Positions 4,800 to 22,308 of a stretch of DNA of 22,308 nt are shown one piece after another; the stretch's first letter is position 1, and every line of letters starts with the position of its first letter. The stretch is from contig WRCU01000001.1 in the NCBI GenBank assembly GCA_009783805.1, forward strand, positions 1 through 22,308, read 5' to 3'. A program made the translations under genes and the position numbers. The stretch comes from Oscillospiraceae bacterium. Its GTDB lineage: Bacteria; Bacillota; Clostridia; WRCU01. Under the pieces are notes generated by a model, which saw nothing but the letters and a program-made list of their open reading frames with translations, did no database searches and was not told the origin of the DNA.

Positions 4800-5672
4800 A
4801 TGATGGGGATAGCGTTCGCAGCCAAGGCGATCGCAACGGCCTTTAGGAAGCCATACATGCTGGCCTTCGCCGCATTGGCGGCGGCGGCCTTCGGCGTCGT
4901 GGCGTACGCCTTCCCGATATTTAAGATCATATCGGCGGTCAGCCTGTTTGAGGGGGCGGACATAGGCCTCAGCGTCATATACGTGCTTAAGGTCATCATG
5001 AGGCACGCGCTTTCGGCGGAGACCCTGACATACGCGGCGGTCGGTATGGCCGGTCTCTCGCTCGTGGGCGGGCTGTACCTCTCATTCGCGCTGGGCGGCG
5101 CCTTCGCGGCCTGCGAGCCCGAAAGGCTGGGCTTCCGGCGTTACCTCTCATCTTCCGTCCGCTCCATCCCCCATATGCTGCTGGCGACGTTCGTCTCCGT
5201 CCTCGTCGCCTGCGCCTTCGCGGTGGCGGCCGTCATAGCCTCCGTTCCGGCCATAGTGGTGACCCGCGCGGTCTTGGTGGGCGGCCTGGCGATCTTCAAC
5301 GAGATGGTCTTTTTGGACTTCGTTACCGTTGTGACCATCCTCATTTGCTATTGCTTCATCAGGGTCTACCTCACCTTCTGGCTGGTTTCGGTCTTTTACT
5401 ACGGGCAGTCGTTTCGGAGCGGGAAGAAGCTGGCCGAAACCGCCTTCTGGTCCACCATGCTGAGGCTCCTGTCCCTGGACGCCGCATTCGTGGCCATGCA
5501 GGCGGCCATGTCGCCCATAAACGGCCAAGCCGCCGGCATCGCCGTCATATGGGCCGTCAACACGGCGTACCTGGCCTTCGGGACCGCCTACACCTTCATC
5601 GTCTACGGGAAGGTGAGGGACGCGTACGTGAAGGGCCCGCACGGCGGCTCAGCCCCGATCAGGCAGGCTTAA
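4800..5672 (+). CDS. Polytopic membrane protein, unknown function
   Basis: I do not recognise this 290-residue protein. It starts at ATG 4800 directly after a strong GGAGGAAGGGG purine tract, with a second in-frame ATG next to it. By eye it has six or seven membrane segments: about residues 19-40, 78-102, 124-147, 149-170, 173-200, 220-235 and 243-265. Short basic loops separate them (RFRRY-like region near residue 110, SGKKLAE near 205), and the tail is hydrophilic. No catalytic motif is visible. It follows the kinase gene by about 50 nt on the same strand and probably ends the polysaccharide transcription unit, because a separate promoter for rpsU starts just downstream. A role in envelope assembly would be a guess from context only. 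Confidence 0.75.
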   Translation: MMGIAFAAKAIATAFRKPYMLAFAALAAAAFGVVAYAFPIFKIISAVSLFEGADIGLSVIYVLKVIMRHALSAETLTYAAVGMAGLSLVGGLYLSFALGGAFAACEPERLGFRRYLSSSVRSIPHMLLATFVSVLVACAFAVAAVIASVPAIVVTRAVLVGGLAIFNEMVFLDFVTVVTILICYCFIRVYLTFWLVSVFYYGQSFRSGKKLAETAFWSTMLRLLSLDAAFVAMQAAMSPINGQAAGIAVIWAVNTAYLAFGTAYTFIVYGKVRDAYVKGPHGGSAPIRQA

Positions 5673-5954: not shown

Positions 5955-6008
5955 CGGCCCCGCATATGCCGGACCCCATTTGAGAGGAAGGGTAAATATT
6001 GCCATTGG

Positions 6009-6047
6009 GCGGCGCGTAAAGTATCATCTACGCGCCGCTTTTATTTT
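6009..6047 (+). terminator. Rho-independent terminator after rpsU
   Basis: A perfect 10-bp inverted repeat, GCGGCGCGTA (6009-6018) with TACGCGCCGC (6029-6038), encloses a 10-nt loop. It is followed directly by a T-rich run (6039-6047, TTTTATTTT on a slightly shifted count). It lies about 55 nt after the rpsU stop. Confidence 0.93.
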
Positions 6048-6128: not shown

Positions 6129-7412
6129 GTGCGGCGTATGGCGAACGCGAAGGAAAGGAAGATAAATCCCGGCCGTACGGCCGCAAAGCTGCTCATCTCG
6201 CTGGCCGCGGCCATCGCCTGCTCTGTCATGGACGGCGAGGGCCTGTCCATATACGAGGTCAGCGAAGGCTACTCCGTGATGTTCTACCTGTTCATCGTCT
6301 TCGCCTGCATGTCCGGGTTCCACGCGGCCACCTTGGCGACCATGCTGAAGATAAGGCTGAGGAAAGGCTCGGACATAGAGACGGGGATGCTGTCCGTCCT
6401 CTACAAGGTGATCGCCGTCATAGTGGCCATATTCGGCGTCGCGCTCATCTTCGGCCAGCTGGGCTCGTTCGCGGGGTTCTTCTCCATGTTCGGGGGCATG
6501 ATGCTCGGCTGGTCGCTTCAAGCCCCGGTAAGCGGCATCGCGGCCTGGGTCCTGGTAATCGTGAGCCGCCCGTACAAGATCGGCGACAGGATCATCTTCC
6601 CCAACCTGGGGCTGATGGGCGACATAATCAAGTTCACCCCGATGTACCTCACCCTCAACCAGGTCGGCGGGACCGTCGGCAGCGAGGAGGCCTCGGGCAG
6701 GATCCTGCACGTTCCCAACAACCTCCTGTTCTCCACCGTCGCCATCAACACCACCTTCCATCAGAAGGACGAGGAGTCGGCCTACATACTGGACGAGGCC
6801 GTCTTCCGGGTCACGTTCGACTCCGATTGGGACACTGTCGAGGGCATCTTGATCTCGGCCGCCAAGGAGGCGACGCAGGACATTATCGAAAAGACCGGCC
6901 AGGAACCGTACCTGCGGGGCGAGACATGGGACTACGGCACCTTATTCAGGATAAGGTACATGTCCGACGCCACGGACAGGCCGCGCATACTCTACGAGAT
7001 CACCAAGAAGGCCACCAAGTCGTTCCAGCAGAACAAGAACGTCGACCTCGTGGTCCCGTTCGTTTATTCGTTCAAGCGCCACCTGGACTCCAGCCCGCTG
7101 TCTTCGAAGGGCAACGAGGACCTGGAGCAGATAAAGGTGGAGGAGATCCTGTACGACGTCGAGGAGGCCGAGCGGATCATGCTGGCCGACAAGGCGGAGA
7201 TAGACCGCATAGCCAAGAGCATCTTCGACAAGGGCCTGCTGCAGCCCATCGTGGTCTCGCGCAACCTGGACGGCGGCGGGTACAGGCTGCTCTTCGGGGA
7301 GAAGAGGCTTTTGGCCTGCATCCAGTTGGGTTGGGTAAGGATACCCGCCATAGTGAGGAACCGGCTGGGGACGGACATATCGGACCCGCCGCCCGTGTTC
7401 CCGCAGTTCTGA
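6129..7412 (+). CDS. MscS-type mechanosensitive channel with C-terminal ParB-like domain
   Basis: This 427-residue protein joins two known domains. Residues about 18-150 hold hydrophobic segments ending in a pore helix GGMMLGWSLQAPVSGI and SRPYKIGDRIIF, the core MscS signature. A beta domain (IIKFTPMYLTLNQ, HVPNNLLFSTVAINTT) and an alpha/beta cytosolic part follow, to about residue 320. Residues about 333-420 match the ParB N-terminal fold: a starting strand IKVEEI, helix DKAEIDRIAKSIFDKG, GLLQPIVV, GGGYRLLFGEKRLLAC and VRIPAIV. The GEKR box at 7296-7307 corresponds to GERR of ParB CTPases. No helix-turn-helix follows, so DNA binding is not expected. GTG 6129 has GAAGG 6 nt upstream; ATG 6138 is an alternative with worse spacing. 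It probably acts as an osmotic valve in the inner membrane whose gating may respond to a ligand bound by the ParB-like domain (inference). Confidence 0.88.
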   Translation: MRRMANAKERKINPGRTAAKLLISLAAAIACSVMDGEGLSIYEVSEGYSVMFYLFIVFACMSGFHAATLATMLKIRLRKGSDIETGMLSVLYKVIAVIVAIFGVALIFGQLGSFAGFFSMFGGMMLGWSLQAPVSGIAAWVLVIVSRPYKIGDRIIFPNLGLMGDIIKFTPMYLTLNQVGGTVGSEEASGRILHVPNNLLFSTVAINTTFHQKDEESAYILDEAVFRVTFDSDWDTVEGILISAAKEATQDIIEKTGQEPYLRGETWDYGTLFRIRYMSDATDRPRILYEITKKATKSFQQNKNVDLVVPFVYSFKRHLDSSPLSSKGNEDLEQIKVEEILYDVEEAERIMLADKAEIDRIAKSIFDKGLLQPIVVSRNLDGGGYRLLFGEKRLLACIQLGWVRIPAIVRNRLGTDISDPPPVFPQF

Positions 7413-13135: not shown

Positions 13136-13963
13136 TTAATAGTCGGCGATCCTCTCGTCCATGATGGGGAGCCGCCTATCCAGCGCGGCGAGCGAGTACT
13201 CCACGGTCTCGTGGACCTCCGCGGGGGTCATGCACCCGACCGCCACCAGGTCCTTGTCCCTGATCGTGTTCCAAACGAAGTTGAGGCCCACGAACGGGTT
13301 CAAGTGGCCCGCCGCCATGGGCTTTATGGTCAGCACCGGCTTTTTGGCGCCCCAGATTATCTTGTGGACCAGCTCGACCTCGATCTGCATGAGGAACCCG
13401 ATCGCATTGTATATCTGAATATAGACCTCGACGTCGTACCCGTTCGCGTCGGCGTACGTGACTATCTCCGGCATGTGGGCGCTGAGCCCCGGCACCATGC
13501 CGTTCTCGCGGATCATGTAGAGGTAATCCCCGATCCTGTCGATCCTGCCGGCGCCCTTATTGACCAGCTTCTCCACCACGAAGTGGAGGGGCAGGCATAT
13601 GTCCACGCCGCATTCCGCGCATAGCCTCATGTGGTCGGCGGCCGAAGCCCTGCCTTCGGCGGTGTCGGACACGTCGAACACCGCCAGCTCGATGAGGGTC
13701 ACCTTCCTGCCGGTCCTCTGCTCGGCCATGCGGATGCCGTCCAGCGCGAACCGGTGGCCCACGACGCAGCCGATGATCGCGTCCACCCCATGCTCGAGGT
13801 ACGCCTCCACGATGGCGCAGACCGCGGAGGCCTCGTTGTTGAAGCTCTTGATGTGCACGTCCCGGGCCCTCGTCCTATGTGACCCGCCCATGATGTTGTT
13901 GGTTCCGATGACCAGCCTGGAAAGCTCCAGCCCGCCGATCTTGGTCCTGGGGAACGACTGCAT
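13136..13963 (-). CDS. Predicted TIM-barrel protein, aldo/keto-reductase-like, unknown function
   Basis: I cannot name this 275-residue protein. It opens FPRTKIGGLELSRLVIGTNN and shows alternating strands and helices with acidic, His and Cys residues near strand ends (AIIGCVVGHRF, CAECGVDICLPLHF, KPMAAGHLNPF). It closes with VGCMTPAEVHETVEYSLA, which resembles the C-terminal part of aldo/keto-reductase-type barrels. The usual AKR catalytic Asp-Tyr-Lys-His set is not evident. ATG 13963 is chosen because GGAGGTGG lies 5 nt upstream; the longer frame from 13996 would start inside the predicted -10 element. It is the first gene of the minus-strand run and precedes the ABC exporter by 25 nt, so a link with the exporter's substrate is possible but unproven. 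Confidence 0.75.
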   Translation of the reverse strand: MQSFPRTKIGGLELSRLVIGTNNIMGGSHRTRARDVHIKSFNNEASAVCAIVEAYLEHGVDAIIGCVVGHRFALDGIRMAEQRTGRKVTLIELAVFDVSDTAEGRASAADHMRLCAECGVDICLPLHFVVEKLVNKGAGRIDRIGDYLYMIRENGMVPGLSAHMPEIVTYADANGYDVEVYIQIYNAIGFLMQIEVELVHKIIWGAKKPVLTIKPMAAGHLNPFVGLNFVWNTIRDKDLVAVGCMTPAEVHETVEYSLAALDRRLPIMDERIADY

Positions 13964-13994
13964 TCGCGCCACCTCCGATTCTATCGTGCCTACC

Positions 13995-14024
13995 ATGATA
14001 TGACTTCCGCGAGGCCGTATGCAA
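13995..14024 (-). promoter_or_regulatory. Promoter of the minus-strand six-gene run
   Basis: On the minus strand, TTGCAT (14019-14024) and TATCAT (13995-14000) are 18 bp apart. The predicted start near 13989 leaves a 25-nt leader carrying GGAGGTGG before ATG 13963. It is divergent from the polymerase promoter at 14050-14078. Confidence 0.6.
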
Positions 14025-21168: not shown

Positions 21169-22308
21169 ATGATCAAGAACGGCATCGAGATAGAGGGTCA
21201 GGTCATCCGGACGGTGGAGTCTTACGGCAAGGCCGCCGGCGTGCATTGCCAGATCATAGATTGGGACGGCTCCGTCCTCCACTCATTCCCGCCGCACGGC
21301 GACCGTCCCAAGGCCGCGGGCAGGTTCGGCGCCGCCGGCGCGGGCCCCATGGCCGGCGTCTGCGCCAAGGTCTCCTCCTTAGTCGGTGGCCCCGGTGTGT
21401 GCGCCAACGCCCACAAGTACGGCTTCTACCAATCGGAGAGGTTCGGCGGGCGGTACATATTCTTCTGCCCCGCCGGCCTCGTGCACTGGGTCTCGCCGTT
21501 CACCCTGGACGACGGGGAGAGGTACGCGGTGCTGGCCGGGCCCGTCATGGTCGGCGAGCCGGACGACTCGTTCATGGGGGACCTTCTGGCCAGGAACTTC
21601 GGGTATGGCGGGCGCCTGCCCGGACGCACGGCGGACGAGATCCAGTCGCTCATGGGGGACCTGCCGAACCTCAGCCCCGACAGGGTGAACGCCATGTCGT
21701 TCACGCTGATGGTCCTGACCTCCCACATCACGGGCGACCATTTTTCAGGCTCGATCAACAGGTGCGACTCCGCCGAGAGCAAGACGAACATGGCCAACGT
21801 GGTGAGCTACTTCAAGGCATCGGCCAAGCAGAAGGACGACGGGGGCTACGTCTACCCCATCGAGAAGGAGAGGGAGCTGCTGCCCCTCATATCGATCGGC
21901 GACAAGAAAGGCTCCCAAAGGATATTGAACGAGATATTCGGCTCCATATTCTTCTCGACCGGCGGCAACTTCGAGGTCATCAAGGCCCGGGTCCAGGAGC
22001 TGATGGTCCTACTGTCCAGGGCCACCGCCGACGGCAGCGCGGACCCGGGGTACGTGTTCGGCTCGGACGGCGGCTACATGGCCCAGATCGGGCGGTTCCA
22101 GACGATCGACGAGCTGACCTACTGGCTGTCCTCGATGATGGAGCGCTTCACCGACTGCATATTCAACCTCGAGGGCGTGAAGCACATAGACGTCATCTAC
22201 AAGGCCGTCAACTACGTGAAGAACAACTACATGAACCGGATGACGCTGGAGGACGTGGCCTCGGTCGTTTTTTTGAGCCCTTCCTACTTCAGCAGGATAT
22301 TCAAGGAC
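21169..22308 (+). CDS. PocR-domain AraC-family regulator, 3'-truncated
   Basis: The frame runs from ATG 21169 (AAGGCGGG upstream) to the window end without a stop, giving 380 residues. The N-terminal 170 or so residues resemble the PocR sensor domain: a Cys-His stretch GVCANAHKYGFYQSERFGGR, then IFFCPAGLVHWVSPF and a GPVMVGEP strand. In known members this fold binds small metabolites such as glycerol or propanediol-type ligands. After a helical middle region, the end (KAVNYVKNNYMNRMTLEDVASVVFLSPSYFSRIFKD) is the first helix-turn-helix of an AraC DNA-binding domain, so about 60 residues are missing beyond the edge. PocR regulators often sit before diol- or glycerol-catabolic and microcompartment genes, so the region right of the window may hold such genes. 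The ligand is unknown. Confidence 0.87.
   Translation, partial: MIKNGIEIEGQVIRTVESYGKAAGVHCQIIDWDGSVLHSFPPHGDRPKAAGRFGAAGAGPMAGVCAKVSSLVGGPGVCANAHKYGFYQSERFGGRYIFFCPAGLVHWVSPFTLDDGERYAVLAGPVMVGEPDDSFMGDLLARNFGYGGRLPGRTADEIQSLMGDLPNLSPDRVNAMSFTLMVLTSHITGDHFSGSINRCDSAESKTNMANVVSYFKASAKQKDDGGYVYPIEKERELLPLISIGDKKGSQRILNEIFGSIFFSTGGNFEVIKARVQELMVLLSRATADGSADPGYVFGSDGGYMAQIGRFQTIDELTYWLSSMMERFTDCIFNLEGVKHIDVIYKAVNYVKNNYMNRMTLEDVASVVFLSPSYFSRIFKD

Follow-up and report, generated by a model that had tools for sequence, protein, structure and literature searches.

A single uninterrupted reading frame in an Oscillospiraceae genome joins an MscS-type mechanosensitive channel to a ParB N-terminal (ParB_N) domain. 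Such fusions occur in bacteria of several phyla, and the nucleotide-pocket fold of the attached domain suggests that a cell nucleotide may tune this pressure-release channel. The gene occupies positions 6129–7412 (427 amino acids, with the stop codon included in the coordinates) on the plus strand of the window, i.e. the whole 22,308 nt-long stretch of DNA that was analysed, and all features of the gene given below lie on that strand. Its start is a GTG at 6129 or, alternatively, an ATG at 6138, with the 424 amino acid-long copy in the protein collection (P0002) agreeing with the latter. A ribosomal protein S21 gene precedes it, and a sigma-70-like promoter match (5999–6027; 10/12, a match to the consensus only) is found upstream, with two such matches between 4700 and 7900 as compared to a mean of 0.6 in shuffled sequences. 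Pfam scanning placed the MscS β-domain (MS_channel_2nd, PF00924) at residues 134-208 (6528–6752; 28.4 bits against a cut-off of 20.2, E = 1.8e-6) and ParB_N (PF02195) at residues 331-411 (7119–7361; 45.6 bits against a cut-off of 26.3, E = 7.4e-12), after which the protein continues for only 16 residues. No helix-turn-helix (HTH) in the fusion protein exceeded its curated Pfam cut-off, the only such match being PF23336 with 12 bits against 27.1. A preliminary description had proposed just such a frame, with MscS and ParB_N parts and no HTH, and the domain scan bears this out; the ParB domain, which it had placed at about residues 333-420, is present, albeit with a Pfam match that ends at residue 411 rather than 420. 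Among NCBIfam models, those for Noc and ParB matched the tail and those for MscS the channel part, all under the model cut-offs, while ParB-like PHROGs families matched the tail with E-values down to 3.7e-15.

A hydropathy scan indicated hydrophobic segments at residues 15-41 (6171–6251), 43-75 (6255–6353), and 81-122 plus 125-147 (together 6369–6569), the last two corresponding to the second helix and the pore helix (FGGMMLGWSLQAPVSGIAAW) in the MscS alignment. Within the limits of this simple scan, which is not a topology model, the three segments from residue 43 onward match the E. coli MscS helices that come before the β-domain, residues 43-75 aligning with the first helix region, whereas the segment at 15-41 is extra, as the E. 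coli MscS alignment begins downstream of it. Profile alignment of channel residues 40-317 to E. coli MscS (PDB 9p0n, residues 25-283; E = 6.7e-12) extended from the first membrane helix through the final strand of the cage, with the cytosolic α/β cage region at residues 216-317 (6774–7079). Pore helix, β-domain and cage thus align with E. coli MscS (PDB 2oau, 9p0n) and YnaI, to which the fusion adds the N-terminal hydrophobic segment, a NQVGGxVGSEE insertion in the β-domain (part of the LNQVGGTVGSEEASG stretch, residues 176-190; 6654–6698), and ParB_N after the cage. This insertion is almost invariant in fused and unfused members of the clade alike, making it a clade signature. A short, variable linker (residues 318-330; 7080–7118) follows the cage, such that the ParB domain starts ~14 residues past the strand aligned with the last cage strand of MscS, which in that channel closes the base of the cage. 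Across 49 fused loci, the distance from this strand to the first pocket motif of the ParB domain (Box I) was 47-64 residues (median 52), and that from Box I to the C-terminus 44-84 residues.

The ParB assignment of the tail holds across the family. PF02195 matched 45 of the 45 family tails given (E up to 0.01), and a tail profile compared against solved structures found Noc (1.6e-22), Spo0J (1.8e-14), sulfiredoxin (Srx; 1.2e-6), KorB (1.7e-5), SerK (3.4e-5) and PadC (PDB 6ryk; 0.0018). Since every one of these tails matches PF02195 and the profile recovers Noc and Spo0J, the ParB_N match is not a chance hit. When the tail alone served as query, 11 proteins were retrieved among 59 candidates: the window's own protein and P0038, P0034, P0010 and P0047, all of them fusions; P0122, which looks like a fusion fragment and includes cage letters; and five ordinary ParB-type proteins (P0123-P0127). 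No donor family other than the ParB type was seen among these matches.

Of 1106 homologues, the best 120 included 112 with both domains, one of them the window's own copy, and with a Planctomycetota member as query the fusion was found in all 120 matches listed, of 1037. In a scan of species genomes, in which tails at 80 loci were scored with a profile built from the family, 49 of the best 80 of 119 related genome stretches carried a ParB tail. Further fusions, whose existence the preliminary description had left to a domain search, were thus found, and the 49 loci span eight named phyla: Bacillota (14), Planctomycetota (13), Lentisphaerota (6), Verrucomicrobiota (4), Chloroflexota (3), Latescibacterota (3), Armatimonadota (1) and Handelsmaniibacteriota (1), plus four without phylum. 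As the window belongs to a draft assembly of 339 contigs, we considered whether two genes had been joined artefactually during assembly or gene prediction; given that the fusion recurs in 49 of the best 80 loci and in more than 200 listed proteins, we reject a chimera and regard the artefact as having a negligible probability. By record title, all hosts of the 49 fused loci are metagenome-assembled or uncultured, with no cultured host among them. Few genomes of the window's own phylum have the fusion (3 of 299 in a sample), and the same holds for a sample of the class (3/291) and for relatives (2/41), the window's genome being included in each count. One genus (code g11) contained the fusion in one genome and no match in the other (G010, G342), pointing to patchy gain or loss. 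No PF00924 match besides the fusion occurs in the genome of the window (73% complete) or in one further fusion-bearing genome (G011; 83%), while the three fusion-bearing genomes of higher completeness each encode one or two additional MscS genes; MscL is also present in four of the five.

To what extent does the tail retain a nucleotide pocket? Conservation was counted over 248 distinct tails (289 proteins were given, of which eight are unfused and without a tail, leaving 281 tails in total). The preliminary description had pointed to two boxes, GLLQPIVV and GEKRLLAC, as CTP-binding motifs, and both were located as described, at residues 369-376 and 390-397. GLLQP (residues 369-373; 7233–7247) constitutes the Box I or C-motif loop, and GEKR (residues 390-393; 7296–7307) the Box II or P-motif, GxxR; in the alignment to Noc (PDB 7nfu), GEKRLLA pairs with GERRWRA. 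In the numbering of the Box II residues as GE78RRY/F, taken from PMC8494293, the Arg equivalent to Spo0J R80 is present, whereas Lys replaces R79 and Leu replaces R82, again as had been noted; E78 is kept too. Both boxes are strongly conserved, namely G369 in 246, L370 in 243, Q372 in 237 and P373 in 246 tails for Box I, and G390 in 248, R393 in 243, A396 in 246, C397 in 243 and W402 in 248 for the Box II region. Sequence entropy was 0.00 at G369 and 0.24 at R393, compared to a mean of 1.95 over residues 333-411.

The remainder of the pocket is less well kept. According to PMC8367383, changing R60, R103, R104, R139, N136, G79 or S74 of Caulobacter ParB removed or weakened CTP binding; of these seven residues, the tails as a family retain only G79 and R104. 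The place of R103 holds Arg in 7 of 248 tails, that of R60 is not conserved, and that of the cytosine-contacting Ser holds Ser in 149. In the window protein itself, a Ser occupies the place of S74 and, in one alignment, an Arg lies near R60, but this Arg is not conserved in the family. Box III (read as any ENxQR-like string downstream of the domain, and including N136 and R139) was found in none of the 281 tails, and canonical GERR in none of the 248 distinct ones; the place of the Box II Glu is taken by Glu in 67 and by His in 131. Moreover, the canonical pocket is completed by a helix from the partner subunit, as laid out in PMC8367383, and this helix would fall beyond the end of the fusion protein, which counts against a sensor. 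The CTP-pocket reading of the preliminary description therefore stands in part: the base-loop Gly (246/248) and the GxxR Arg (243/248) are kept, whereas CTP in particular is unsupported, with other contacts not kept and Box III absent.

Close homologues devoid of the pocket, which would have spoken against that reading, were not seen, as only far lineages (five of 248 tails) deviate. Two loci from one related lineage (L025 and L037; Latescibacterota/Handelsmanbacteria) carry Trp in place of G369 together with Gln in place of the GxxR Arg, and these are the only two tails without G369, both also lacking R393. Three others (P0185, P0194, P0224) have His or Lys at R393 and keep G369. The joint loss in L025 and L037 suggests that G369 and R393 act together. 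Analysis of close pairs spoke to selection on the tail: in all 11 pairs chosen, dN was below dS in the ParB part (e.g. 0.053 versus 1.915 for L008/L009), a comparison restricted to this part because some dS values of the channel core and linker came out undefined (-1), and dN was higher in the ParB part than in the channel core in nine of the 11. By these two results, the ParB domain is kept for a function while being less constrained than the channel. The ParB part of L025/L037 is likewise constrained (dN 0.075, dS 0.508), suggesting that the domain has some use even without the pocket residues.

Our leading explanation, drawn from these sequence comparisons and to which we give an even chance, is that the tail constitutes a ParB-fold ligand sensor, connected by a short linker to the final strand of the cage in an MscS-type channel, and that binding of a nucleoside triphosphate (NTP) tunes the channel, most likely without hydrolysis. 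If the tails follow MscS symmetry, a ring of seven ParB folds would lie beneath the base of the cage, and each fold would bind an NTP with its GLxQP loop and GxxR Arg; this would alter the packing of the ring against the cage and thereby shift the channel's tension threshold, its adaptation or the access of solutes. The NTP would be bound in a PadC-like manner, that is, without being hydrolysed, since Box III is gone and the Box II Glu is often His. That the tail binds a nucleotide, be it CTP, ATP or GTP, is plausible: as reported in PMC12704722, ParB-fold fusions can bind any of the three, Box III is often missing from non-canonical members of the fold, and the nucleotide cannot be predicted from sequence. 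The same survey found NTP binding for 11 of 28 purified ParB-fold proteins and none for the other 17. These 17 non-binders, the variants at R393, and L025/L037 count against the nucleotide-sensor reading, as do the poor retention of the seven Caulobacter residues and the dN that exceeds that of the channel core in nine of 11 pairs. In its fuller form, an NTP-gated and possibly CTP-gated ion channel with a seven-domain ring as a non-hydrolysing sensor and a tension threshold set by nucleotide state, the proposal is a tentative one that we hold to be possible rather than probable.

The chief rival to a nucleotide sensor is a structural or protein-binding role for the ParB fold, in which the pocket would be a relict and its loop residues would be kept for the fold; the domain might cap or narrow the base of the cage, or act as a solute filter, a crowding sensor or a dock for a partner. 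We consider this alternative a real, if somewhat doubtful, contender. It would account for the loss of most phosphate- and base-contacting ParB residues from the tails, the persisting constraint on the domain in L025/L037 despite their missing pocket, a linker that is short and of similar length across loci, and the existence of relatives that lack ParB, two of which (L054 and L058) have a zinc ribbon instead. What it explains less readily is that constraint on G369 and R393 is much stronger than on the domain overall, and that R393 corresponds to the residue required for NTP binding in other ParB folds, where an Arg-to-Ala change at the GxxR motif abolished binding in the binders (PMC12704722).

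Cys397 (7317–7319), just past Box II, is almost invariant in the tails (243/248), while only two of ten canonical ParB/Noc proteins (L089, L095) have a Cys at this place. Together with the retrieval of sulfiredoxin (1.2e-6) and SerK by the tail profile, this would fit thiol or redox control or Srx/SerK-like chemistry, in which Cys397 senses oxidants or electrophiles, possibly along with a nucleotide, and opens or closes the channel. However, Cys397 lies four residues after the GEKR Arg and not at the catalytic place of sulfiredoxin, whose catalytic Cys sits inside the motif equivalent to Box II, and packing can also conserve a small residue where a helix begins. We thus deem thiol control unlikely.

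Regarding the origin of the fusion, a tree of channel cores (91 rows, 54 fused and 37 unfused, with L079 excluded owing to a break in its frame close to the start) required four changes of the fused label, as compared to a mean of 29 upon shuffling, and its starred branches force three. Archaeal members formed one unfused group, Poribacteria together with three Latescibacterota/Gemmatimonadota rows a second one, and fused bacteria most of the remainder. This fits a history of few gains and some losses, with the direction not being inferred from what is a quick tree with several long branches. The 31 unfused loci comprised Poribacteria (9), Bathyarchaeota (7), Brockarchaeota (4), Nitrososphaerota (2), Latescibacterota (2), Thermoproteota (1), Gemmatimonadota (1), Chloroflexota (1; L079 with its broken frame) and four unplaced ones, and open stretches of at least 40 amino acids in any frame of these loci contained no ParB remnants. 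Unfused P0071 and P0108 may be true losses or truncated genes. As to other features of the unfused relatives, L054 and L058, both archaeal, carry a C-terminal zinc ribbon (CxxC...CxxC) at the place of the ParB tail, i.e. a different accessory domain at the same position, and by eye the C-termini of P0058, P0065 and L075 read as zinc ribbons too. Four archaeal proteins of 490-526 amino acids (P0058, P0065, P0070, P0073) appear by eye to contain the β-domain and cage twice in one chain; of these tandem-duplicated relatives, two are named Thermoproteota and Bathyarchaeia. Eight Poribacteria loci (L072-L074, L076, L077, L081-L083) comprise two to three tandem MscS-like frames.

Gene context was surveyed at 50 loci (49 fused plus the window, many with short flanks). 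Clustering of 345 ORFs of at least 80 amino acids within 5 kb yielded no neighbour gene conserved among fused loci that would support any ligand; the single group recurring in at least four loci, ABC-transporter-like by eye and without a domain call, was present at seven. Among 26 genomes of relatives with an unfused MscS gene, this gene lay within 15 kb of ParB/Noc genes on the same contig in four (G002, G019, G021, G029; 8-15 kb apart), and in the other 22 the two were more than 15 kb apart or on different contigs. Such proximity is a possible route to the fusion, or reflects mere clustering near the origin. It also bears on the idea that the tail tethers the channel to the partition machinery (ParA, ParB or DNA), for instance to place it near the nucleoid or septum. 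The four genomes, and a Staphylococcus gene list in PMC8460829 in which parB and an MscS gene stand side by side, raise the probability of such a tether only slightly; Noc, which has the same fold, binds membranes under CTP control (PMC8429893). Nevertheless, HTH scores stayed below the cut-off, the ParA-binding motif [LFI]G[KR]G[LFI] (as given in PMC12704722) was found in none of 49 tails from residue 301 on, and Box III, from a region involved in the CTP-driven pairing of ParB (PMC8367383), is absent. In addition, the window's genome encodes a separate canonical ParB, and MscS and ParB/Noc genes were not close in the 22 genomes above. This argues that a tethering role is very improbable.

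Nucleotide-domain MscS channels and ParB-fold fusions as a class are already known. The former are represented by bCNG channels, MscS proteins fused to a cyclic-nucleotide-binding domain, with which papers by Caldwell (2010) and Malcolm (2012), listed among the references of PMC4560390, reportedly deal. Like the fusion, these belong to the MscS superfamily and carry a nucleotide-sensing domain; the fusion has a ParB fold in its place, with no cyclic-nucleotide-binding domain detected in the Pfam scan of the protein. PadC of Myxococcus xanthus, which is not known to be a channel, shares with the tail the ParB fold and the absence of Box III, albeit with a weak profile match only (PDB 6ryk). It binds CTP without noticeable hydrolysis and lacks the ENLQR box and the Box II Glu, as stated in PMC8494293 and PMC8367383. 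The CTPase clamps Noc, Spo0J and ParB are the closest solved sequences and have the GxxQP loop and GxxR in common with the tail, which in contrast to them lacks the HTH and Box III that accompany DNA clamping. Finally, the ParB-CTPase-fold fusions of PMC12704722 (PNAS 2025) place the same fold on unrelated domains and include binders of CTP, ATP and GTP; in the main text of that article, the words mechanosensitive, channel and MscS do not occur. Open PMC papers with matching words treated MscS and ParB apart at those words, none describing a fusion. As far as can be seen from this open PMC literature, the combination is undescribed, in keeping with the earlier remark that no MscS-ParB system was known.

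CTP/ParB-fold switches are known mainly from DNA clamps and some other fusions. Should the domain tune an osmotic channel, turgor release would be linked to nucleotide state and ion channels would join the functions of the ParB fold; if so, a class of ligand-tuned osmotic valves in at least eight bacterial phyla would have been overlooked under plain labels, the names already given in databases being mechanosensitive ion channel or ParB N-terminal domain-containing protein. Sister channels with and without the ParB tail, along with the lineage devoid of both pocket residues, constitute a natural test set for the role of the pocket. Elsewhere in the window, a 290 amino acid-long hydrophobic protein (4800–5672) and a 286 amino acid-long protein (13136–13996) had no Pfam match at E = 0.001, and the frame at 21169–22308 encodes a PocR sensory domain with an AraC-type HTH, cut by the end of the window.
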